Below, one piece after another: positions 3,187-29,756 of a stretch of 64,000 nucleotides of DNA. The notes under the pieces were generated by a model. The model made no database searches and was not told the DNA's origin. It was given only the letters and a program-made list of their open reading frames with translations. Origin of the DNA: Chromatiales bacterium (GTDB lineage Bacteria > Pseudomonadota > Gammaproteobacteria > Steroidobacterales > GCA-2729495); the NCBI GenBank assembly GCA_020351875.1, contig CP070671.1, positions 2,203,253 to 2,267,252 of the forward strand, written 5' to 3'. The first letter of the stretch is position 1. The number at the start of each line of letters is the position of its first letter. The translations under genes were made by a program, and so were the position numbers.

Positions 3187-3209
3187 GTAGGAGCGGCTTC
3201 AGCCGCGAT
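3187..3209 (+). repeat. REP-like palindrome with GTAG head
   Basis: The tetranucleotide GTAG (3187-3190) is followed by a short hairpin, GCGGCT at 3193-3198 paired with AGCCGC at 3201-3206. A GTAG/GGAG head before a small hairpin is typical of REP sequences handled by REP-associated tyrosine transposases (RAYTs) in Pseudomonas, Stenotrophomonas and relatives. It lies 28 bases after the pyrC stop. No transposase is in the window, so mobility is inferred from resemblance only. Confidence 0.6.
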
Positions 3210-3229: not shown

Positions 3230-3585
3230 GAGCCGCGGCGGGGGGCGGGCGGTCTGTCCGGCACGCCGGCTTGCCCTTCGGGTGCGATGGACTGCCGACG
3301 TCGTGGGGCGATCTCCCTTCCGGGCTTAACCTCACCCGGACATCCCTGTCCGGGTTCGGATCGGCCCTCCGTCGCTCCCGCCATCCCTGGCTCCGCTCCT
3401 CCGGGACGACGCCCGGAAGGGAGATCGCCCCACGAAGTCGGCGTGACAGTGCGGTGGGGAGCCCCGGAGCCGCGCATCCCTGCGCGGCCCCTTCGGGCTG
3501 ATCCCTCGCTCGCTCCGCTGCTCGGCAAGCCGGCTGACTGTGCCGGACAGAGCACCCGCCCCCGCCGCGGCCGGCACAGAGCAGC
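3230..3585. repeat. composite foldback (nested inverted repeat) element
   Basis: This tract carries nested inverted repeats. The inner arms, 3294-3325 and 3411-3442, match over about 32 bases with one mismatch. Between them lies a perfect 9-base stem, ACCCGGACA (3334-3342) with TGTCCGGGT (3347-3355). Outer blocks at about 3230-3285 reappear inverted at about 3526-3582 (GCCGCGGCGGGGG, CTGTCCGGCAC, GCCGGCTTGCC), interrupted by roughly 60 extra bases in the right half. No convincing protein is encoded: overlapping frames here are Pro/Arg/Ser-rich and lack family features. It lies between the convergent pyrC and nitrilase-like genes. It may be a foldback mobile element or a structured RNA; neither is shown. 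Confidence 0.6.
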
Positions 3586-3745: not shown

Positions 3746-3812
3746 GCCGGGTTGGGGATGTCTTCCTTCCCTCCAGTTTTGTAGTCGGTCAGGAAGACAT
3801 CCCCAACCCGGC
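3746..3812. repeat. 21-base perfect inverted repeat hairpin between convergent genes
   Basis: The segment 3746-3766 is exactly complementary to 3792-3812, with a 25-base loop. It lies 44 bases beyond the stop of the nitrilase-like gene and downstream of pyrC, so it could fold in transcripts from both sides and act as a bidirectional terminator. There is no clear T-run. The arm is G-rich like those of the hairpins at 20.05 and 29.4 kb, but the conserved loop core of that family is not recognisable here. Confidence 0.6.
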
Positions 3813-19921: not shown

Positions 19922-20033
19922 CGTTCAGTTCCCTATATCCTCGGGTTGTATTCGTCTGCGCCGTCCCGGCGGTTTACAAGGAAATGGCGGAAACGCCGCC
20001 TTCCGGGCCAAGGCCAGGTGAGCCAGAAAGGTG

Positions 20034-20107
20034 GGGACAGACGGGGTGTGAGACCCAAGTTTCGTCCGTTTTGCTCAGAAACTGGGGGCTCACACCCCGT
20101 CTGTCCC
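20034..20107. repeat. long hairpin element A (conserved core, unique arms)
   Basis: The arms 20034-20052 and 20089-20107 are perfectly complementary over 19 bases and continue inward as CCCAAGTTT/AAACTGGGG with one mismatch. The loop core reads TTTCGTCCGTTTTGCTCAGAAA. Its reverse complement aligns with the loops of the hairpins at 29.4 and 29.7 kb, while the arms differ from those copies. The arm begins GGGACAGAC, a sequence common in short intergenic hairpins of Gammaproteobacteria. It lies between the msrP promoter side and the DUF547 stop and could also stop transcription of the latter. Confidence 0.7.
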
Positions 20108-20140
20108 AATCGCAGCCACCGGCCCGACCTGTTGTCTGCC

Positions 20141-20902
20141 TCAGCGAGACCACCTGCCGTTCAGACCCCAGTCATACTCCCGGAAATTCACCTCGAAATT
20201 CTCGCCCCGCAGCACTCGCGCGCTGGCCTGATCCGTCACGAAACGGGCCATGTAGTTCTGCAGCGATCCCGCGTTGGCCACGAAGTCCTCTTCGAACCAG
20301 TCAAAGATCTGCGACACGTAGGCCACCCGGCGGTTCGAATCGAACACGTTGCGGGTCGGGTCGTTCAAAAACTCCTCGGCCGCGGTGTCGAGCTGCGCGT
20401 CGAGAGTTGCCGGCCGATACGCGCGGCTCGCCAATCTCGGGCACGACAGGGAGGCGCAGACGATCGCGAAATGAATACGCGCATCGCCCATCGGGCGCAG
20501 GCGCCCGTGCTCGATGTCTTCCAGGCTCAAGGATTCGCCCAGCACGTCGAAGCGCATGCGCTTGAAAAAACGCGAGCGGCCGAACAGTGAATCGGGCGAC
20601 TGGCCGTCCAGGATTCCCCGGATCGCGATCGCGTTATATGCGTTGATATAAAAAGCTTTCTGCTCGGCCGGTGTAGACAGGTCTTCGGGGGCCGTGGCGG
20701 CCAGCTGATCGATGAAGTCGTCCAGGCGCGGGTCCAGCGCAATGCCGTCGTAGTCGACAAAGCCGTTGTCCACGTGGGACAGCAGCAGGTCGTCGAGCAT
20801 CGAGTAGTCCGGCTTGGCGAGAACCGGTGCTGTGGCCAGGCAGGCAACGGCCGCCAGGGCAATGCGCCGGCCTGCGTTCGTCCCTGGTAATTCGCTCGTC
20901 AT
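20141..20902 (-). CDS. DUF547 domain-containing exported protein
   Basis: The 253-residue protein has a signal peptide (IALAAVACLATAPVLA, to about residue 28) and the DUF547 core: AFYINAYNAIAIRGIL, the LEDIEHGRLR segment, HFAIVCASLSCPRL with its conserved Cys pair, and a C-terminal VAYVSQIFDWFEEDF. The function of this domain is not established; a papain-like fold has been suggested for related proteins. ATG 20902 places the signal peptide correctly; the frame extends upstream to 21193 without support. It is divergent from the binding-protein gene at 21026. Confidence 0.88.
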   Translation of the reverse strand: MTSELPGTNAGRRIALAAVACLATAPVLAKPDYSMLDDLLLSHVDNGFVDYDGIALDPRLDDFIDQLAATAPEDLSTPAEQKAFYINAYNAIAIRGILDGQSPDSLFGRSRFFKRMRFDVLGESLSLEDIEHGRLRPMGDARIHFAIVCASLSCPRLASRAYRPATLDAQLDTAAEEFLNDPTRNVFDSNRRVAYVSQIFDWFEEDFVANAGSLQNYMARFVTDQASARVLRGENFEVNFREYDWGLNGRWSR

Positions 20903-21025
20903 CGCAATCCTTGTCTCGAATGCACACGCAGCCCGGCGAAGGCGCCCGCGGAAGGCCCGGAGTTTACAGGGGTTTATCCAGCGGGTATCTGGCCTGTGCG
21001 CCTCGCTTTCAGGCAACATGCAGCC

Positions 21026-22069
21026 ATGAAAGTTTCCTTCCCGTTCGTTTTTTTTGCCGCGCTGCTGCTGGTTGCCTGCGGTGGCGATGGGACTCCGCCC
21101 CCGGCACCCGGGGCCACCGGCACGGCCAGCCAGGTGATCACGATTGGCGGCACCTCCACGCCCAACACGCCCGGGTCTGCCATGTGGCTGCAATTCAAGA
21201 GCGATGCGGAAGCGGCGTCGCAGGGCAGGCTGGAGCTCAAGCCGCTGATCTACGGCCAGCTGGGTTCCGAGGAGCAGCTGCTGTCGGGCCTGCGCCGCGG
21301 CCGCATCCAGTTTGCCAACCTGTCGGCCCAGGCCACGTCCACGCTGGCGCCCGAATTATCGCTGCTGTACACGCCGTACCTGTTCCGCGACGAAGCCGAG
21401 GCGGACTACGTCTACGATCGTTACCTCACGGACATCTACAGAGAGTTGCTGGCCGATGTCGGTCTGCACCTGGTGACCTGGTACGAAATCGGCTTCCACT
21501 CGGTATACGGCCGGGAGCAGATCCTGACGCCCGAGCAGGCCAAAGGCCGGCGCTTCCGGGTGTCGGCGAGCCTGAATGCGCGTCTGTTCGCCAAAGCCAT
21601 TGGCGCCGACATGATTCCGCTGGGGTACGGAGAAATCGTGCCGTCATTGCAGACGGGCCTGATCGATGCTGGCGAGAACTCCATCAGTTTGTACGCGCGC
21701 ACCGGCATTTCGGCCGAAGCGCCATATCTCACGCTGACCCGGCACGTGTTCGGTATGTCGGTCATCGTTGCCGACCTGAAGTGGTGGCAGGCGCAGGACG
21801 ACGCCACCCGCCAGATCCTGACGGACACGTTTCCGTCCATCACGGAATCGCGGGCTGCAACCCGGGCGCAGGACGAGACCGACCTGGGGGATCCGGAGCT
21901 CGGCATTCGCTGGCAGGCGCTGACGCCCGAGCAGCGGGACCAGTGGGAGCAGGCCACCAGCGGTGTGGCCGAGCAGCTGCTCGAAGACATCGGCGGCCGG
22001 TCGCGGGAAATCTACGCCATTATCCTGAAGGGCAAAGCGGAATACGCAGCGCAGAAAGACGGCGCCTAG
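21026..22069 (+). CDS. TRAP-type substrate-binding lipoprotein (DctP family), orphan
   Basis: The 347-residue protein starts with a lipoprotein signal (MKVSFPFVFFAALLLVACGG; Cys near residue 16) and then shows the DctP fold: GTSTPNTPGSAMWLQFKSDAE, ELSLLYTPYLFRDEAEADYVYD, KGRRFRVSASLNARLFAKAIGAD with the conserved Arg, and PLGYGEIVPSLQTGLIDAGENS. TRAP binding proteins deliver organic acids to DctQM permeases. No DctQ or DctM gene is present in the window, and lipid anchoring is less usual, so it may be a sensor or serve a remote permease. The ATG at 21026 was chosen for its lipobox. It converges with the dehydrogenase gene, overlapping it by four bases. Confidence 0.88.
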   Translation: MKVSFPFVFFAALLLVACGGDGTPPPAPGATGTASQVITIGGTSTPNTPGSAMWLQFKSDAEAASQGRLELKPLIYGQLGSEEQLLSGLRRGRIQFANLSAQATSTLAPELSLLYTPYLFRDEAEADYVYDRYLTDIYRELLADVGLHLVTWYEIGFHSVYGREQILTPEQAKGRRFRVSASLNARLFAKAIGADMIPLGYGEIVPSLQTGLIDAGENSISLYARTGISAEAPYLTLTRHVFGMSVIVADLKWWQAQDDATRQILTDTFPSITESRAATRAQDETDLGDPELGIRWQALTPEQRDQWEQATSGVAEQLLEDIGGRSREIYAIILKGKAEYAAQKDGA

Positions 22070-23064
22070 GTCGTCATGTCCAGCACGGCAGTGCCGTTGA
22101 TCCTGCCCTCGCGCAGTGCGTCCAGGGCCTCGTTCGCCTGGGCCAGCGAGTAGCGCGTGATCTGCGTGTCGATCGGGTGTGCCGCGGCCAGGGCCATGAA
22201 CTCGCGGCCGTCGCGGCGGGTGAGGTTGGCCACCGAGCGTATCTGGCGTTCACCCCACAGGTCGGCGTAGGGAAAAGCCGGGATGTCGCTCATGTGGATG
22301 CCACCGCACACGACCCGCCCGCCCTTGCGCACATCACGCAAGGCTTTCGGCACCAGCGCGCCGACGGGGGCGAAGATCAGGGCACCGTCGAGGGGTTCGG
22401 GCGCCGGTTCGTCGGAGCCGCCGGCCCACGCGGCGCCGAGTTCGCGGGCGAATGCCTGGGCGGCCTTATCACCGGGACTGGTGAACGCATAGACCTCGCG
22501 ACCTTCCCGCTGTGCCACCTGCGCAATCATGTGCGCCGCCGAACCGAAACCGTAGATGCCCAGCCGCCGGGCATCGCCCGCCATGCGCAGCGCGCGATAG
22601 CCGATCAACCCACCACACAACAGGGGCGTGGTGCGGGCCGGGTCGAGGTCCGCGCTGAGCGGAATCACGAAATCTGCATCGGCCACCATGAATTCCGCAT
22701 AGCCGCCATCGCGCTGGTAACCGTTGAACAAGGCATGGTCGCAAAGGTTTTCCTGGCCGGTCGTGCAGTAATCGCACTCGCCGCAGGCCCAGGCCAGCCA
22801 AGCGATGCCGACGCGCTGTTCCAGCGGCATGTCGACCCCGCTGCCGCGGGCACTCACTGCACCGACAACCTGGTGGCCGGGGACGACGGGATAGGGGATA
22901 TCGGCGAGTTCATTGTCCTGCACGTGCAGGTCGGTGCGGCACACGGCGCAGGCCAGCACGCGCACCTGCACCTGGCCGGGCCCCGGTTGCGGTATGGGCC
23001 GTTGTTCCATGACCAGTGCTCGTGCCGGCCCCGGGCAGACCATGGCCTGCATCTGGCCGGACAT
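22066..23064 (-). CDS. zinc-dependent alcohol dehydrogenase family protein
   Basis: The 332-residue medium-chain dehydrogenase has the catalytic zinc Cys in CAVCRTDLHV, GHQVVG in place of the common GHE, the structural zinc cysteines in CGECDYCTTGQENLC, and the NAD(P) motif GIYGFGSAAH. It probably oxidises a small alcohol or reduces an aldehyde. The layout is that of the AdhA-like branch (TIGR02822 type). ATG 23064 follows the TPR gene stop by seven bases; an in-frame GTG at 23088 would overlap that gene and is less likely. Confidence 0.87.
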   Translation of the reverse strand: MSGQMQAMVCPGPARALVMEQRPIPQPGPGQVQVRVLACAVCRTDLHVQDNELADIPYPVVPGHQVVGAVSARGSGVDMPLEQRVGIAWLAWACGECDYCTTGQENLCDHALFNGYQRDGGYAEFMVADADFVIPLSADLDPARTTPLLCGGLIGYRALRMAGDARRLGIYGFGSAAHMIAQVAQREGREVYAFTSPGDKAAQAFARELGAAWAGGSDEPAPEPLDGALIFAPVGALVPKALRDVRKGGRVVCGGIHMSDIPAFPYADLWGERQIRSVANLTRRDGREFMALAAAHPIDTQITRYSLAQANEALDALREGRINGTAVLDMTT

Positions 23065-23071
23065 GCCGGGC

Positions 23072-24631
23072 TCAGCCGTCACTGGCACCCGGATACTCGA
23101 GCCGGCCGCCGCCGTCGTCGGGCGCTTCGATGGGTTTGCCGGCGTCTTCGCTGCGGCCCGGATCCTTGGGCCGGTAATAAAAGTCGTGCCGGTACAGCAG
23201 ACCTTCCGACACCACGGCCACGCCGTCTGCGAACCGCGGCCGGAAATAAGATCGTCGCAGCGCTTCGGCGACCCGGCGATCCATCAGATCGGACGGGTTC
23301 GACTCGATCACCACGACATCTTTCACGCGCCCCTTCTCGCTCACGTCGTAGCGCACTAGCACGTAACCGTCGCTGAGCAGGTTCCAGTCGCTCACGTCGC
23401 CGGGCGCATAGCGCAGGTTGCCCCAGCCCAGGCCCGTGACGCGTACCGGTTCGCTGAAGAATTCCTCGCGCAGGTCTTCGTAGCCGCTCTCCAGCGACAG
23501 CGCCTGCCAGGCGCGTTCGTAGTAGGCGATGGCCGTGTCGAAGCGGCCGGAACTGCCGTAGAGGTCGCCGAGCTGCACCAGCAGCTCGGCCTGCTTGGGC
23601 CGGTCTATCTCGGGTTGCGCCTCGATGATCTTCAGCGCCTTCTTCAGGCTCCCCGCGCTCTCGGATACCAGGCCCTGGCGTTCGAACGTACCCGCGAGGC
23701 CTTCGTAGGCCGCGACCATTTCCAGCGACTCCTTGCCGTAGGTCCTGCGGATCATCTGTTGGGCGCGCTGGTACATGTAGCGCGATTGCTCCACCTGGCC
23801 CGAGCGTTCGTACCAGCGAGCGAGTTTGTACATCGCGGGCGCCGTTTCCGGATTGTCCTCGCCGAGGCGCCGCTGGTGAATTTCCAGCTGCACCTCCTGG
23901 TGAAAATTCGCTTCTTCGATTTCCTCCAGGCCGATGTAGGTTTCGGTCAGGCCGTCACGAATCTTCATCTGTTCGAGGTTGTAGAAGCCCTCGTTCACAT
24001 TGTTCAGCCGCAGCGCTGTGCTGAACGCTTCTTCGGCCTTGTCGTACAGGCCGGCACGGTTGTAGGTGGCGCCGAGGCCAACCTGGGCATTGATCAGTCG
24101 GGGCGACAGCTGGCCCTCGTTCTGCTTGATGATGGCGATGCTGCGCAGGTAGGCCTGCTCCGCGTCGACCAGATCGCCCTTGAGCATCAGGGTAGTCGCG
24201 AGGTTGTCCAGTGGCGAACTGAGCTCGATGCTGTCCGGCCCGAATTCCTGTTCCGTGAGCTGGGCGACCCCGCGAGCTGCTTCGACGGCGTCAGCGTACC
24301 GGGCCTCGTCAATCGCGGTGACCATGCGCTGGTACAGCACGGTCCGCCTGCCGGGCGGGTCCGGCTCTGCGTCGGCCGGCGCGGCGGATTCCGGCGACGG
24401 GTCGCCGGTCGCATCGCCGGCGTCCACCGCGGCAGGCAAGGGTTCGGCACCGGTGGTCGGCTCGCTCGGTTGCGCACCTTCCGCATCCGGCATGGCCGGA
24501 TCCAGTGGCTGCAAGGGTACGTCGGTGGTCTCGGTTTCGTCGGGTAGCACCGGCCCTTCGGGCTTGTCCTGGGCGATGGCCGGGCCGGCGACGCAGAGCA
24601 TCGCGATGCATGTGAGCGCCTGTTTGGTCAT
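23072..24631 (-). CDS. exported TPR protein with TonB-like C-terminal domain
   Basis: The 519-residue protein has a signal peptide (TKQALTCIAMLCVAGPAIAQ), a Pro/Glu/Ala-rich low-complexity stretch (about residues 25-95), several tetratricopeptide repeats (about 120-400; for example LNNVNEGFYNLEQMKI and a YYERAWQAL motif), and a C-terminal TonB/energy-transducer-like region (YVLVRYDVSEKGRVKDVVVI...AEALRRSYFRPRFADG). That C-terminal motif, tied to TPRs rather than a membrane anchor, occurs in families of unknown function. ATG 24631 was chosen for the signal peptide. Confidence 0.8.
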   Translation of the reverse strand: MTKQALTCIAMLCVAGPAIAQDKPEGPVLPDETETTDVPLQPLDPAMPDAEGAQPSEPTTGAEPLPAAVDAGDATGDPSPESAAPADAEPDPPGRRTVLYQRMVTAIDEARYADAVEAARGVAQLTEQEFGPDSIELSSPLDNLATTLMLKGDLVDAEQAYLRSIAIIKQNEGQLSPRLINAQVGLGATYNRAGLYDKAEEAFSTALRLNNVNEGFYNLEQMKIRDGLTETYIGLEEIEEANFHQEVQLEIHQRRLGEDNPETAPAMYKLARWYERSGQVEQSRYMYQRAQQMIRRTYGKESLEMVAAYEGLAGTFERQGLVSESAGSLKKALKIIEAQPEIDRPKQAELLVQLGDLYGSSGRFDTAIAYYERAWQALSLESGYEDLREEFFSEPVRVTGLGWGNLRYAPGDVSDWNLLSDGYVLVRYDVSEKGRVKDVVVIESNPSDLMDRRVAEALRRSYFRPRFADGVAVVSEGLLYRHDFYYRPKDPGRSEDAGKPIEAPDDGGGRLEYPGASDG

Positions 24632-24757
24632 CCTGAACGTCTTGCAGCGCTTGGGACAGTCAGCGGTTAATGTAGCAGCTTCGCCGGAGCTGGCGGAAAG
24701 CATTGCAGCAGGCCCGCCGGGAACATCCGCGGGCCCGGGATTGTCGAATCGTTAGCC

Positions 24758-25402
24758 ATGTTCATGCGCAGGAAAAACCTGTCCATCCCGGCACCGGAAG
24801 ATGCGCTGCCCGGACGCAGTACGCGCATGCCGGTCGCGAAGCGTCATTTCGTGAACGGCAATCCGCTGGCGACGGAGGTGCCCGCCCACATGGAGCAGGC
24901 CCTGTTCGGCCTCGGCTGCTTCTGGGGCGCGGAGCGGCGTTTCTGGGAGGTTCCCGGCGTCTATCTCACGGCGGTCGGCTATGCGGCCGGCCACACGCCA
25001 AACCCGACCTACGAGGAAGTCTGCTCGGGGATGACTGGGCACAACGAAGTCGTGTGGGTGGTCTTCGACCCGGCGACAGTGAGCTACGAGGAACTGCTGC
25101 AGACCTTCTGGGAAAGCCACGATCCGACCCAGGGCATGCGCCAGGGCAACGATGTGGGCACGCAGTACCGGTCCGGTATCTACTGCTACTCTGCCGATCA
25201 GGAAGCGGCCGCCAGCGAATCCTGCGAGAGCTACCAGGCGGCGTTAAGCGCGGCGGGGCACGGGACCATCACCACGGAAATTCTGCCGGCGCCGCCGTTT
25301 TACTTCGCCGAGAACTACCATCAGCAATACCTGGCAAAAAACCCCAGCGGTTATTGCGGGCTCGGTGGCACCGGCGTGAGCTGCCCGGTGGCGGTCAGTT
25401 GA
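24758..25402 (+). CDS. msrA: peptide-methionine (S)-S-oxide reductase
   Basis: The 214-residue protein carries the MsrA active site [18 protein letters not shown] (Cys near residue 54), [18 protein letters not shown], and the [10 protein letters not shown] and ENYHQQYL blocks. The C-terminal [11 protein letters not shown] carries candidate resolving cysteines. It reduces the S-epimer of methionine sulfoxide. The N-terminal 40 residues before the domain ([20 protein letters not shown]) match those of longer MsrA proteins. It converges with the glycine-zipper gene, overlapping it by eight bases. Confidence 0.95.
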
Positions 25403-25742
25403 GCACGCGGTAGCCCCGACCGCGCATACAGTTCTTTACCACGCGCTGCTTCTCGCGCTCGTTCAGCTGCGCTGACTTGGCGCCCCCCGCCACGGCCCCG
25501 ATGCCGGCACCCCGGCCTGTTTCCCCGCCGATGGCGCCAATCGCGCCGCCCACGGCGGCACCACCGGCCGCGCCTTTGGCCACGCCGACTTCCGTCTGGA
25601 TCTCACGGGTGTAGGCCTTGCAGTCGGCCAGGTCCTGTTCGTACATCACCGGATCCACCCCGCGCATGTCCACGATGGGGTCCGGATTCGCCGCGCAGCC
25701 AGCAGCGCAAAGCGCCAGGGCGGCAACTTTAATGTGATCCAT
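25395..25742 (-). CDS. glycine-zipper lipoprotein
   Basis: The 115-residue protein has a lipoprotein signal ([20 protein letters not shown]; Cys near residue 16), a conserved front half ([18 protein letters not shown]), and a glycine-zipper segment ([20 protein letters not shown]) that can insert in the outer membrane, followed by [18 protein letters not shown] with a Cys. The CK...[11 protein letters not shown] pattern is common in small outer-membrane-associated lipoproteins of unknown role. ATG 25742 was chosen because it gives a normal lipobox. Confidence 0.85.
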
Positions 25743-25900
25743 GCACGGGCTCCCGGGCTCGGTCTCACAGAGTGTAACGCGGCCGCAGCCCGGTGGTTGA
25801 CCGGGCCATTGTGCGGAAATGTGATGCCCGCCACGGCTGAAACGGGCGCCATCCTTATTATGCAAAGCTGGGCCGGGTTGGTCCGTGGGCGGGTCTTTGA

Positions 25901-27235
25901 ATGCTTTCCAAGCGCGTGAAGGTTGACACGATGAACCTCGAGAAGGGCATGTACGTGGCCCTTCTCGACCGGCCGTGGCTGGAGACGCCGTTCCTGTTCC
26001 AGGGTTTCGAGATCCGCGAAGAGAGCGAAATCGGCCTGCTGCGCAAGTTCTGCAATCATGTCTACGTCGACCTGAAGCGCAGCGCATTGCCCGAGAAGCG
26101 CATCATGGAGGCCCGCAGCGTCGCGGGCCAGAGCCGTGACCCCTTTGCGGGCCCGACGAAGGCTCGGGTCAACGGCTACAAGCGCATCACCCTGAGAATG
26201 CGCCTGCTCAGAACTCTCAGCCGGATGGACCCGACCGGCCGGCTCGCCGAAAAAGTGAACGGCGCGCGCCACTACGAGAACAAGGTCACCACCCAGCAGG
26301 AAGCGCCGAAGGCTGCCCACGCCTATGGCATCGCCGTGGACACGATGAGCGAGGTGATCCAGGACCTGCGTGAGGGCGGTGGCATCCAGGTCGACAAGAT
26401 CAAGGACGCAGTCTCGCCAATGATCGACAGCGTGCTGCGCAACCAGGATGCAATGGCGTGGCTGGTCACGCTGCGCAGGCGCGATGAGTACGCCTACAAC
26501 CACTCCATTGCCACGTCCGTGTGGGCCCTGGTGCTTGGCCGGCACCTGGGCTTCGACCGCAACGGTCTGCGCACGCTCGCGATGGGCGGCATCCTGCTGG
26601 AAATCGGCAAGGTCGCGATTCCGGAATCCATCACGAACAAGGAAGGTGCGCTGACGGACGAGGAAGCGGAAATCATGCAGGCCCACGTGCACTACGGTGA
26701 GCGATTGGCGAAAAAAACGCCCGGCATCAGCGAAGAGGTGCTGGAAATGATTCGCAGTCACCACGAGCGCCACGATGGTTCCGGCTACCCGAACGGCATC
26801 GCCGGCAGTGAGATCCCGGTGTACGGGCGCATCGCCGGCCTGGTGGATTGCTACGACGCGATGATCTCCCACCGGCCCTGGGCGAAGGCGAAGTCCTCCT
26901 ACGATGCGGTGCGCGAACTGAACCTGCTGGCCGGCACCGAGTTTCAGCGCGAACTGATCGAGCAGTTCGTGCAGGCGCTGGGCATGTTCCCGACCGGCAC
27001 GATCGTGGAGCTGAACACCGGTGAGGTCGGCATCGTGATCGAGCAGAATCGCATTCGCCGCCTGCGGCCGAAAATCATGCTGGTGCTGGACAAGCACCAC
27101 CAGCCCCTTGGCACGAGCAAGATCATTGATCTGAAGTCGCTGCCCAGTGACGAGAATAACCGTCGCGCGCGCTGGATCGTGAAGGGCCACGAAGCCGGCG
27201 CTTTTGGCCTCGATCCGGAAGACTACTTCCACTGA
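25901..27235 (+). CDS. HD-GYP domain protein with DUF3391, degenerate HD dyad
   Basis: The 444-residue protein has an N-terminal DUF3391 domain (RVKVDTMNLEKGMYVALLDR, to about residue 120) and a C-terminal HD-GYP domain (about 190-400). The GYP part is intact (HHERHDGSGYPNG, near 286-298) and the first His is kept in YNHSIATSVW. The metal-binding HD of the usual LLHDIGK is replaced, however: the protein reads ILLEIGKVAIPE. HD-GYP enzymes degrade cyclic di-GMP; loss of this dyad should weaken or abolish hydrolysis, suggesting a binding or regulatory role. It is followed after 14 bases by an EAL protein, probably in one transcript. Confidence 0.88.
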   Translation: MLSKRVKVDTMNLEKGMYVALLDRPWLETPFLFQGFEIREESEIGLLRKFCNHVYVDLKRSALPEKRIMEARSVAGQSRDPFAGPTKARVNGYKRITLRMRLLRTLSRMDPTGRLAEKVNGARHYENKVTTQQEAPKAAHAYGIAVDTMSEVIQDLREGGGIQVDKIKDAVSPMIDSVLRNQDAMAWLVTLRRRDEYAYNHSIATSVWALVLGRHLGFDRNGLRTLAMGGILLEIGKVAIPESITNKEGALTDEEAEIMQAHVHYGERLAKKTPGISEEVLEMIRSHHERHDGSGYPNGIAGSEIPVYGRIAGLVDCYDAMISHRPWAKAKSSYDAVRELNLLAGTEFQRELIEQFVQALGMFPTGTIVELNTGEVGIVIEQNRIRRLRPKIMLVLDKHHQPLGTSKIIDLKSLPSDENNRRARWIVKGHEAGAFGLDPEDYFH

Positions 27236-27249
27236 GTTGGAACGGCGTC

Positions 27250-28545
27250 ATGGATCTCGCCGGCACACCCCGCTTTCGCTATGCACTGCTGTTGCGTGAG
27301 ATCGACGACATGTGGACGGCCGAAGATTTCCGGTCGGTTGGCCTGGTCCTGATTCGCCTGGCCGGCCTGGAGGCAGTCAATGCCAACTTCGGCTATATCG
27401 GTGGCGACCGGGCGCTGGAGGAATTCGAACAGCGACTGCTCGCGGTGGCGCGCCAGCGCGACCGGGTGTTCCGCGTGGGCAGCACGAGTTTCGCCCTGCT
27501 GATTCACAACCCGACGAACGAGGGCCATGCGGTGCTCGGCGCCGAGCGCATTTCGCGCGAGGCCCGTGAACCCGTGCTGCTCGGTGCGCGCCGGGCGCGG
27601 CTGCAGGCGCACATGGGCGTGTCGCTGCTGCCGGAACTTGCGGGCGGCACGGAAGAACTGTTGCGCCACTGCGAGCTCGCACTGGACGAGTCGCGCGACC
27701 GCGATGAGCCTTACATCGTTTACTCGGACGGGCTCGCGGCGGGCAGCGCCGGCCACGCACGGGCGGACTTCGACATTCATGAAGCCCTCGACAAGGCCGA
27801 GCTGGAAATGTATTTCCAGCCGAAAGTGCACCTCGGCTCGAGGGAACTGGCGGGTGCCGAGGCGCTGATCCGGTGGAACAGTCCGAGGGACGGGGTGCAG
27901 CTGCCCGAGGCCTTCCTGCCCGGCGTAGAGCGCGGCTGGGCCATTCACGCGCTGTTCGGCTTCTCGCTGAACGCCGCGTTGCGCCAGGCCTGCGACTGGT
28001 GCCAGAAAGTGCCGGAATTCGTGATGGCGGTGAACATGTCGCCCGGAAACCTGGAAGACCCGTACCTGATCGATACGGTGACCGACGCACTCGGGGTCTG
28101 GAACCTGGATGCCGACCGGCTCGTGCTGGAAATCACCGAAACTGCGTTGATGCGCGACCCGCGCGCCAGTGCCGCCAAGCTGCAGGCCCTGCACGAACTG
28201 GGCGTGCGCATCGCCATTGACGACTTCGGCACCGGGCACGCGAGCCTCGCCTACCTGCGTGACCTGCCCGCCGACGAACTGAAAATCGACCGCAGCTTTA
28301 TCACGCAGATGCTTACCAGCGACCGCGACCGGCGCATCGTGGCATCCATTATCCAGCTCGCCCACGCGGTGAACATGCAGGTCGTCGCCGAGGGCATCGA
28401 AGACGGGGATGCGGCGCAAGTTCTCCAGGACATGGGCTGCGAAATCGGCCAGGGCTATTTCTTCAATCGTCCCTTGTCGGCCGGGAATTTCGCGACCGCG
28501 TGGCTGCGCGAACGCGAAGCCGCTGAAGCGGGCGCCGACGCATAA
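27250..28545 (+). CDS. EAL-domain cyclic di-GMP phosphodiesterase with degenerate GGDEF
   Basis: The 431-residue protein has an N-terminal GGDEF-like domain (about residues 15-165) whose signature is lost (RVGSTSFALL where GGDEF is expected), so it cannot be a cyclase. The EAL domain (about 175-420) keeps the catalytic set: AEALIRW near 204, NMSPGNL, LEITETAL, DDFGTGHASL, KIDRSFI, AEGIED and GQGYFFNRP. It should hydrolyse cyclic di-GMP to pGpG. No transmembrane segment is seen. The pair with the degenerate HD-GYP protein immediately upstream suggests the two act together. Confidence 0.9.
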   Translation: MDLAGTPRFRYALLLREIDDMWTAEDFRSVGLVLIRLAGLEAVNANFGYIGGDRALEEFEQRLLAVARQRDRVFRVGSTSFALLIHNPTNEGHAVLGAERISREAREPVLLGARRARLQAHMGVSLLPELAGGTEELLRHCELALDESRDRDEPYIVYSDGLAAGSAGHARADFDIHEALDKAELEMYFQPKVHLGSRELAGAEALIRWNSPRDGVQLPEAFLPGVERGWAIHALFGFSLNAALRQACDWCQKVPEFVMAVNMSPGNLEDPYLIDTVTDALGVWNLDADRLVLEITETALMRDPRASAAKLQALHELGVRIAIDDFGTGHASLAYLRDLPADELKIDRSFITQMLTSDRDRRIVASIIQLAHAVNMQVVAEGIEDGDAAQVLQDMGCEIGQGYFFNRPLSAGNFATAWLREREAAEAGADA

Positions 28546-28677
28546 GAGCCACCGCTCCCACGCCTCTGCCTTTGCTCGGTCGCGTTAACGCGAACTGGTT
28601 CGACTCCGCTCTTGGCAGCGCGGGCGTGTATCTTTGAACGGTCCTTTCCAGCCCCACCGGGAGGCCGGCCGGTCATC

Positions 28678-29406
28678 ATGACGAATCGCTCCATTCTGCG
28701 CCGCGGAGCCTGCCTGGCCTTCGCGCTGCTGGTGGCGGGTTGCGCACCCCGCGCGCCCGTCACCCGTGCGCCGGCAGAGAGGCCGCCGGTTGCCGCGCCG
28801 GCGGACGCGGTCGAGTACCGCATCGTGCCGGGGGAGTCTGAGATTCGTATCCTGGCCTATCGAGACGGGCCGCTAGCGTCCCTGGGCCACAATCACGTGA
28901 TCAGCACCGCCGATATCGACGGCGCCGTTGCGCTCGCGTCACCCATCGGTCGTTCCACGGTGCGGGTGAGTTTCCCGGTGCAGTCCCTCCAGGTGGACAT
29001 ACCCGTGCAGCGCGCCGAAGAAGGCGCTGACTTCCCGGGTGCGCTCGACCAGTCGGCCATCGACGGCACGCGGTCGAACATGCTGGGAGAAGAACTGCTC
29101 GATGCGGCCAACTACCCGGACGTGGAATTGCGCAGTCGCGAGATCGGCGGTGAGTTGCCGGCGTTGCAATTGCTGATGGACGTGACGGTGAAGAACCAGG
29201 TGACGCCGGTGACGATGCCGGTGACCGTGACGGTAGATGGTGAACGGCTGGTCGCCACGGGTACTGTCAAGGTGCGCCAGACGGAGCTGGGGTTGCAGCC
29301 GTTCAGCGTTGGGTTGGGGGCGTTGTCTGTGCGGGACGAGTTGGTGTTGAAGTTCCGGCTGGTGGCTTTGTTGGGGCCAGGCGGGGTGGGGGACACCAGT
29401 TTCTAA
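28678..29406 (+). CDS. YceI-like lipoprotein
   Basis: The 242-residue protein has a lipoprotein signal (TNRSILRRGACLAFALLVAG, Cys near residue 22) and a YceI-like lipocalin domain (EYRIVPGESEIRILAYRDG, LGHNHVIST, later VELRSREI and the KNQVTPVTMPVTV stretch). YceI-family proteins bind isoprenoid-like molecules, but the role of this one is unknown. Its last residues (LLGPGGVGDTSF) and stop codon are encoded by the left arm and loop of hairpin element B. ATG 28678 is chosen over 28612 because of the lipobox. The 132-base spacer upstream holds the palindrome CGCGTTAACGCG (28581-28592). Confidence 0.85.
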   Translation: MTNRSILRRGACLAFALLVAGCAPRAPVTRAPAERPPVAAPADAVEYRIVPGESEIRILAYRDGPLASLGHNHVISTADIDGAVALASPIGRSTVRVSFPVQSLQVDIPVQRAEEGADFPGALDQSAIDGTRSNMLGEELLDAANYPDVELRSREIGGELPALQLLMDVTVKNQVTPVTMPVTVTVDGERLVATGTVKVRQTELGLQPFSVGLGALSVRDELVLKFRLVALLGPGGVGDTSF

Positions 29407-29450
29407 GCAGTAACGGACGAAACTTGTGCCCCCCACCCCGCCTGGCCCCA
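29372..29450. repeat. long hairpin element B overlapping a gene end
   Basis: The arms 29372-29402 and 29420-29450 pair over 31 bases with two mismatches. The loop reads CTAAGCAGTAACGGACG and, together with the flanking TTT and AAA, matches the reverse complement of the core in element A and in element C at 29.7 kb. The stop codon of the YceI-like gene (29404-29406) lies in the loop. The arm sequence is unlike that of A or C. Confidence 0.7.
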
Positions 29451-29454
29451 AGCC

Positions 29455-29640
29455 GGCGGTTCACCCGGCGTCCGTCCGATCATTGGGCGCTACTTTCTAC
29501 GTGGCGAACGGCCAAACTTCAGCCTCGCACCCTGTCTGTCCCCAGGTAGCCGGGTAATCCGGCGTCGTCCGACACTTGGGGCGCGGCTTTCTGCGCGGCG
29601 AACGGCCAAACTTCAGCCTCGCACCCTGTCCGTCCCGCGC
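29455..29640. repeat. two tandem degenerate copies of the hairpin family, 94-base period
   Basis: A block at 29503-29543 is repeated almost exactly at 29597-29636. The weaker similarity extends upstream of each block, giving a period of 94 bases. Each unit contains a degenerate form of the conserved core (AACGGCCAAACTT, compared with AACGGACGAAACTT) followed by an arm CAGCCTCGCACCCTGT plus CTGTCC/CCGTCC. That arm is close to the reverse complement of the arm of element A. The facing left arms are decayed. No gene lies in the 425 bases between the YceI-like stop and the adaptor gene; the whole tract is made of these repeats. Confidence 0.65.
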
Positions 29641-29681
29641 AGCTGGCTGACCCGGCGCCTTGTGAAGAGCGGGCAACGCCA

Positions 29682-29756
29682 GGGACGGGAAGGGTATCCG
29701 GCACAAATTTCGTCCGTTACTGCTTAGAAATTGGTGCCGGATACCCTTCCCGTCCC
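29682..29756. repeat. long hairpin element C
   Basis: The arms 29682-29704 and 29734-29756 are perfectly complementary over 23 bases, continued by AAATTT/AAATT. The loop core TTTCGTCCGTTACTGCTTAGAAA matches element B (in inverse orientation) almost exactly. Its arms differ from those of A and B. It lies about 70 bases upstream of the promoter-like box of the exporter operon. Confidence 0.7.

Follow-up and report, generated by a model that had tools for sequence, protein, structure and literature searches.

A low-copy palindrome family with a conserved apex and compensated arms in a Chromatiales genome

The window analyzed here is a stretch of 64,000 nucleotides from a Chromatiales bacterium (GenBank assembly GCA_020351875.1, contig CP070671.1, positions 2,203,253 to 2,267,252 of the forward strand). 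It contains three long hairpins, designated A, B, and C, which share a conserved apex and have arms that differ between the copies, yet pair almost perfectly within each copy. They represent a real low-copy palindrome family, most likely a variant of the palindromes of Y1 transposases that resemble terminal inverted repeats (TIRs) or repetitive extragenic palindromes (REPs), with arm rewriting as a testable feature. The hairpins and the loop cores of B and C are the following (positions in the window):

20034..20107, plus strand: hairpin A, 30-nt arms GGGACAGACGGGGTGTGAG-A-CCC-A-AGTTTC, loop of 14 nt
29371..29451 (aligned part 29374-29448), minus strand: hairpin B, 33-nt arms, core on the minus strand, ends GGGGCCAG
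29400..29422, minus strand: loop core of B, TTTCGTCCGTTACTGCTTAGAAA, exact match
29682..29756, plus strand: hairpin C, 30-nt arms, core the same as in B, left end AGGGACGG
29708..29730, plus strand: loop core of C, TTTCGTCCGTTACTGCTTAGAAA, identical to the core of B

An earlier reading of this DNA from its letters alone (the sequence-only reading) had located the three hairpins correctly, apart from B, which is slightly wider. The loop core that it described as shared in either orientation was also borne out, and is exact in B and C; in A the core is TTTCGTCCGTTTTGCTCAGAAA, which is one base shorter than TTTCGTCCGTTACTGCTTAGAAA. No match to TTTCGTCCGTTACTGCTTAGAAA was found in 100 shuffles of the window. 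An alignment of the hairpins in the orientation of the core (A plus, B minus, C plus) required a single gap, which is located in the loop. The core had, however, been delimited too narrowly. The conserved apex has the form CAARTTTC-loop-GAAAYTGG with a loop of 14-15 nt, and a 6-bp apical stem (ARTTTC/GAAAYT) with an A.G mismatch beneath it is present in all three hairpins. The left end of A is GGGGACAG once the G at 20033 is counted, and its right end is CTGTCCCA. The folding of A, B, and C had z-scores of -7.5 to -10.6 as RNA (compared with 200 dinucleotide shuffles) and of -9.3 to -11.2 as DNA.

The left arms are identical at 17 of 23 positions for A and B, at 14/23 for A and C, and at 15/23 for B and C, and these values were equalled by 1, 66, and 42 of 20,000 shuffles, respectively. 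Backed by the shuffles, the identities indicate, at the level of sequence comparison, that the arms of A, B, and C are homologous, i.e., that they stem from one ancestor and diverged in step. Among the 29 pairs of the alignment, 17 are invariant, 11 are altered on both sides, and one varies on one side; 23 of the paired columns lie outside the shared apex. Two-sided change in 11 of the 12 variable pairs was reached by none of 500 shuffles. Paired cells made up 98.9% of 87, compared with 85.2% in shuffles, and again none of 500 shuffles reached the counts. The claim that the arms differ between copies and nevertheless pair thus stands insofar as the arms changed in step; the arms are not unrelated, but homologous. 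A derivation of all arms from one sequence had been named beforehand as an argument against the hairpin family, and such a derivation is indeed what the identities point to, though the later divergence was compensated. In the outer part only 2 of 69 cells are imperfect pairs, and 12 of the 21 pairwise double changes are transversions. B and C have the identical 23-nt core despite their differences at 8 of 23 left-arm positions, whereas 2 of 29 core positions differ between them (Fisher p = 0.015). The difference between arm and core divergence was not significant for A and B (p 0.16) or for A and C (p 0.12).

The core has three copies in the genome of 3,488,936 bp, all of them within the window. 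With up to three mismatches it was matched in 8 genomes among 60 relatives, the own genome included, compared with 9 genomes for a reversed-pattern control, and the seven loci outside the own genome (L004-L010; L numbers denote loci and G numbers genomes) were without a hairpin at the chosen threshold. In a scan of 84,980 species genomes the core was matched four times, in no case with complementary arms within 60 bases on each side; viral contigs yielded none, and plasmids, searched with hairpin C only, gave two weak partial matches (best E 0.9). A covariance model, another earlier proposal, was run on 99 genomes. It recovered A, B, and C and no further copies of the core, but only other palindrome classes in five other genomes; one of the matches, L048, is a GGTACCGG hairpin. 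The A-type arm was found nowhere else in the genome at 0-1 mismatch, and the places with 2-3 mismatches were at the level of the reversed control. Literature searches for bacterial palindromes with covarying arms did not find the loop core, which does not prove its absence from print.

Further long hairpins are present in the genome and its relatives; their arms are paired and differ from copy to copy, and GGGGACA and GGTGCCGG recur as their ends. A sample of the source genome (20 x 20 kb = 400 kb of 3.49 Mb) contained 10 further long hairpins, while 3 x 400 kb of mononucleotide shuffles contained none. Five of the ten carry GGGGACA, with differing arms (GGGGACATTGTGCTTTTTCCAC, GGGGACATTCCTCGATATCCG, GGGGACAGTTTACCTATTTC twice, and GGGGACAGTTTACTCATTTC). 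The pattern GGGACAN{32,62}TGTCCC, which requires a perfect outer 6 bp, occurs at 11 forward places in the source genome versus 4 for the reversed pattern, and the respective numbers for four genomes of the same genus are 5/1 (G004), 4/3 (G002), 6/0 (G003), and 1/4 (G001). The ends GGTGCCGG...CCGGCACC were found in 31 of 40 genomes of the family, at 138 forward places compared with 22 reversed-pattern places (12 genomes); among the matches listed, many are plainly not hairpins, and several genomes have sets of perfect hairpins. Palindromes of the type GGGACAGAC are present in 4 of 246 genomes of the order, all outside the taxonomic family of the source genome. At L204, L208, and L219 the arms are nested and perfect over 48-60 bp, and their internal repeats are mirrored on the two sides; the arms measure 58 bp at L219:5999-6117 and 60 bp at L204:1003-1127. 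The hairpins of G025 have copy-specific arms and fixed ends, those of G020 nearly fixed arms and varying loops (sets L204-L218).

The quality of pairing was counted for 25 rows of the genus (source genome, G002, G003, and G004), comprising GGGACA-type hairpins and A, B, and C, over the outer 17-23 bp. Imperfect pairs made up 19 of 443 cells, i.e., 4/222 in the source genome (A, B, C, and nine other GGGACA hairpins), 1/68 in G002, 11/102 in G003, and 3/51 in G004. Pairwise comparisons within subfamilies, which are not independent of each other, revealed 155 differences that affect both arms and are paired in both copies (85 transversions and 70 transitions), 86 one-arm differences, and 21 others. 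The 85 transversions have no wobble intermediate. A narrower set of 17 rows had looked cleaner, with 9 imperfect among 337 cells and 105 both-arm versus 31 one-arm differences; the larger set adds to it L230, the hairpins of the GTGACC and GCC types, and a further two copies from G003. Two GGGACAT-type hairpins of G003 may form a series of decay versus repair: of L241 and L242 one is perfect over 17 bp, and the other has four imperfect pairs in 17.

The flanks were analyzed for 59 distinct end-motif copies, using innermost partners and leaving out GGTACCGG; two L104 rows among them share one end. In 17 of the 59 copies the palindrome continues without a gap for 4 bp or more beyond the end motif, as flush inverted flanks; 300 shuffles gave a null mean of 0.72 and a maximum of 3. 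A gapped inverted flank was seen once among the other 42 copies (null 0.43), and gapped palindromes, which would be expected after a jump into a looped hairpin, are thus near chance. The five GGTACCGG copies had no excess of flush flanks over shuffles because their flanks are shared. In addition, hairpin L216 of G020 has one extra T in both arms compared with the eight other listed hairpins of this genome.

A link of end-motif hairpins to Y1 transposases was found at the ends of the transposase genes. Y1_Tnp is present in 18 of 37 genomes. The source genome has one such gene, a REP-associated tyrosine transposase (RAYT) according to NCBIfam NF047646 (81.2 bits, cut-off 80), with the TIR GAAAAAGGTGCCGGGTCTATTT. 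Of 33 matches listed, 30 loci were examined (three had no locus), and an inverted repeat was defined by a score of at least 13 within 700 bp. Flanking inverted repeats were detected at 26 of the 30 Y1 loci versus 4 of 55 control loci of the order. The ends are of the GGTGCC, GGTGTC, GGTACC, GGGGACA, or GGGGTCAGA type in 22 cases and of the GTAG type in four, and no control had such a motif. The motif list was written after the hairpins and TIRs had been viewed, so that the 22/30 are descriptive, whereas 26/30 versus 4/55 is independent of the list. For a comparison with the hairpins 22 TIRs were used, and eight of the 30 loci were left out, their TIR being of the GTAG type, weak, or not found. 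In the source genome, the TIR of the Y1 gene matches one arm of the genome's own GGTGCCGGG hairpin at 21 of 22 bases, and one of its GGGGACATTCC hairpins (L194:7859-7909) matches the TIR of the L019 Y1 gene over 13 bases. End-motif hairpins that share their ends with Y1 TIRs thus exist in the order, and the TIRs flanking the gene, not the density of hairpins, are the informative Y1 signal.

The signature Y...NP, a mark of the TnpAREP class as described in PMC6006769, was found in 22 of the 29 distinct Y1 loci. The seven Y1 proteins that were scanned all have Y1_Tnp, and one has a sub-threshold match to a helix-turn-helix, which transposases of subclass 2.1 have at the C-terminus; the protein of L020, the only GGGGACA-type one scanned, reached 68.4 versus the NCBIfam cut-off of 80. 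A Y1- or RAYT-like gene flanked by the core, which the sequence-only reading suggested looking for, was not found, nor was a Y1 gene with ends matching A, B, or C found in the source genome, the sole Y1 gene of which has other ends. The claim that the window has no transposase held for Y1, with a profile made effectively from one sequence; other transposase families were not searched for. This profile, in effect from L019 alone, recovered 29 of the 30 Y1 loci, and it detected no Y1 genes beside GGGGACA hairpins in L001-L240 except for the Y1 loci themselves and overlaps. The window also contains a GTAG-type REP-like sequence, GTAGGAGCGGCTTCAGCCGCGAT, at 3187-3209, and comparable repeats flank Y1 genes in L035 (G011), L040 (G019), L041 (G020), and L045 (G014).

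Between B and C there are two relatives with one arm only:

29471..29544, minus strand: half2, 5' arm and AAGTTT..CCGTT..AGAAA skeleton, without a complementary 3' arm
29563..29637, minus strand: half1, one-armed relative in tandem with half2, spacing about 94 nt

They match the 5' arm at 19-24 of the first 30 bases, which was as good in at most 2 of 20,000 shuffles, and they fold like shuffled sequences (z 1.49 and -0.09). Either half1 and half2 are copies that have decayed, or they never possessed a second arm. Copies of the core without self-complementary arms had been put forward in advance as counter-evidence, and relatives with a diverged core that lack the second arm do exist in the shape of half1 and half2. 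Tandem or one-armed hairpin pieces also adjoin complete hairpins at L216:1024-1104, L222:1058-1125, L221:977-1071, and L211:1048-1141.

The genes adjacent to the hairpins are ordinary, as eight of nine open reading frames (ORFs) nearby match ordinary Pfam families and one matches none. B and C are flanked by a YceI-like gene and an HlyD-type gene. The two features that adjoin A and B are:

20141..21193, minus strand: DUF547 gene, hairpin A lying downstream of it and before a molybdopterin oxidoreductase gene
28612..29406, plus strand: YceI-like ORF, the last 10-11 residues and the stop codon of which are supplied by hairpin B

The hairpins had been described as intergenic, which does not apply to B. 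The YceI-like ORF ends with VALL-GPGGVGDTSF and a stop codon in the loop of hairpin B, while its ortholog in G001 ends with FRLIARAKPD*. In three genomes of the same genus (G001, G002, and G004) both junctions are present and free of hairpins; in G003 the A junction is free of a hairpin and the HlyD gene is split across two contigs. Because of these hairpin-free junctions, which were compared without base-by-base alignment, and of the altered end of the YceI-like ORF, A, B, and C look like insertions. Upstream of an HlyD-type gene in G005 (L105) an inverted repeat of about 70 bp per arm was seen by eye around CCGCCGTGAACCCATCCATGGGGG. Two further structures of the window are a long hairpin at 3746-3812, with 22-bp perfect arms, a 23-nt loop, and no evident likeness to A, B, and C, and a 32-bp inverted repeat at 3294-3442, 97% complementary and with arms 85 nt apart, in a palindrome-rich stretch.

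How can the arms diverge and stay paired? The explanation that we prefer, and to which we give an even chance, is that A, B, and C are low-copy orphan palindromes resembling TIR repeats, that they were moved in trans, and that their arms are kept paired mainly by arm-to-arm template switching. Their spread would need a Y1 (HUH) enzyme of the REP type that acts in trans on single-stranded hairpin DNA. The enzyme would recognise the conserved apex, i.e., the loop, the 6-bp stem, and the A.G mismatch, and pairing would be all that is required of the outer arms. The hairpin would form during replication, and now and then intrastrand template switching would recopy one arm from the other. A single event of this kind would alter both arms at once, and it could add symmetric indels or flanking bases. 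The compensated divergence, the mirrored indel, the flush inverted flanks, and the mirrored nested arms point to such copying. Of the three causes offered by the sequence-only reading, arm-to-arm conversion and a mobilising process that copies an arm are best supported, and selection on RNA or DNA structure less so. A, B, and C resemble TIR repeats and possibly derive from them, as putative members. A doubtful variant holds that the apex alone is inherited, with the loop and the apical stem serving as a snap-back primer, and that each copy rebuilds its second arm from the first, sometimes together with flanking DNA; half1 and half2 would accordingly represent precursors or leftovers, and the arms would drift freely while the hairpin stays near-perfect.

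Several observations weigh against arm-to-arm copying in elements moved by a Y1 enzyme. The A.G mismatch is retained in all three hairpins, and complete recopying of an arm would remove it; copying may stop outside the mismatch, or the mismatch may be selected like the bulge of E. coli REPs. No related hairpin was found outside the source genome, and the direction of change in A, B, and C can therefore not be polarised. Pairing is worse in G003 and G004, where one-sided differences are common, and overall the one-arm differences exceed half of the number of both-arm differences. Ten of the 19 imperfect pairs are one-sided transitions, with G-T on one strand, and stepwise change therefore also occurs. 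Some shared flanks may be part of longer elements and not captured flank (GAGAAAT in L210 and L211 of G025; GARTTCY in L226, L238, and L239), the extra T of L216 recurs in a one-armed piece next to it, so that the indel may have another history, and nested insertion into hairpin centres could also yield some symmetric structures. Between the arms of A, B, and C and the 22 compared Y1 TIRs no match exceeds 8 bases. The TIR consensus of TIRYT genes (TIRtrons) is GGGGWSAS, some of these TIRs are self-complementary, and repeat families are known, according to PMC3733652 and PMC6006769; it is fitted exactly only by the left side of A (GGGGACAG), with one mismatch by B (GGGGCCAG), and not by C (AGGGACGG). 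Furthermore, the density of long end-motif hairpins is raised weakly at most in the vicinity of Y1 genes (6/95 kb versus 6/209 kb), and the four Y1 proteins whose repeats are of the GGGGACA type (L019, L020, L022, and L034) are among the seven of 29 without Y...NP.

Alternatively, the arms would be kept paired by selection on single-stranded DNA structure, as only well-paired copies would be bound and moved by a Y1/HUH enzyme, or tolerated, and compensatory substitutions would occur singly. The conserved apex with its internal mismatch resembles the bulge that E. coli TnpAREP requires, as reported in PMC8266576, the arms of B and C diverge more than their core (a difference restricted in significance to this pair), and one-sided changes are common in the hairpins of G003 and G004. 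We nevertheless regard selection as unlikely, though as a serious contender, as A, B, and C have few intermediates and many transversions among their double changes, the mirrored indel and the flush inverted flanks are not predicted by it, and an inserted copy should decay unless it is still in use. An RNA element under selection for its stem, such as an attenuator, a terminator, or a small RNA, would be in line with the very stable RNA folds and with the location of A, B, and C between co-directional genes. It is improbable, however, as the Rfam 15 scan of the whole window had no match at the gathering score, inspection of the sequence revealed no U-run directly after the stem of A, B, or C on either strand, the orthologous junctions of the same genus lack the hairpins, and related hairpins are also located between apparently divergent ORFs (L194:6137 and L199:16436).

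Separate insertion of a core module into the centres of pre-existing, diverged palindromes would explain why B and C share the identical core and differ in their arms, and the nested arms of 58 and 60 bp in perfect hairpins of relatives would fit as well. The lack of another A-type arm at 0-1 mismatch in the genome and the presence of a diverged core also in the one-armed units make such insertions quite improbable. The elements are short and non-coding, with two inverted arms and scattered copies, as would be a classical miniature inverted-repeat transposable element (MITE) of a DDE transposase with long terminal inverted repeats. Target-site duplications, however, are absent at A, B, and C, and in the 59 related copies one of at least 3 bp was found, which is no excess over the null of 0.99. 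This disfavours a DDE-type MITE, and as the end motifs also occur in Y1 genes as their TIRs, such an origin is highly improbable.

If the palindromes are kept paired by arm-to-arm copying, covariation, which is usually regarded as proving that an RNA or DNA structure is selected, can also come about without structural selection. With 59 distinct end-motif copies and Y1 genes with comparable ends, the clade is suited to testing copying versus selection. Mobile hairpins with variable stems that still pair are also represented by the double-hairpin elements of fungal mitochondria, which differ from A, B, and C in being organellar, in having two hairpins per unit, and in having no known link to a transposase.

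Quasipalindrome template-switch mutation is similar with regard to simultaneous multi-base compensatory changes and stem extension (PMC8794818, PMC8604942, PMC7202029). Template switching makes and mends hairpins with multi-base compensatory changes (PMC8794818) and homogenises arms (PMC8604942). The accounts given in these papers concern a mutation mechanism in RNA genes, in coding inverted repeats of yeast, and in E. coli, and not a bacterial mobile palindrome family.

GTAG/CGTC REPs and the RAYT-associated REPINs resemble A, B, and C in being small, mobile-looking palindromes in which stem changes preserve pairing, and an internal mismatch is also found in E. coli REPs. The sequence-only reading had held that REP hairpins usually keep their stem; published families, as described in PMC3733652 and PMC2817692, vary their stems too, and include REP subfamilies with alternative complementary stem residues (PMC3733652) and modified REPs with the palindrome preserved (PMC2817692). 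In contrast to REPs, A, B, and C have no GTAG/CGTC tag at a fixed place (the foot of A can be read as GTGG, those of B and C cannot), their paired stem has about 29 bp compared with 5-13 bp in the GTAG families described in PMC3733652, and there are three copies in 3.49 Mb, whereas more than 100 are reported as usual for REPs in PMC2817692.

The closest likeness in the ends is to the TIR repeats of TIRYT genes (TIRtrons; mostly TnpAREP subclass 2.1 / RAYT group 1), which also have long inverted-repeat ends and which, as described in PMC3733652 and PMC6006769, form moderately abundant families, dimers, and clusters and are in some cases wholly self-complementary. Y1 genes with comparable ends are common in the order. 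Unlike these TIR repeats, A, B, and C combine a conserved 14-15-nt loop with covarying arms, the genome yielded no Y1 gene whose ends match theirs, and the exact fit to the consensus is confined to A, at one end. The little-studied TIRYT/TIR-repeat class would gain a family in which the apex is conserved and the arms drift, whereas in the G020 set the arms are nearly fixed and the loops vary.

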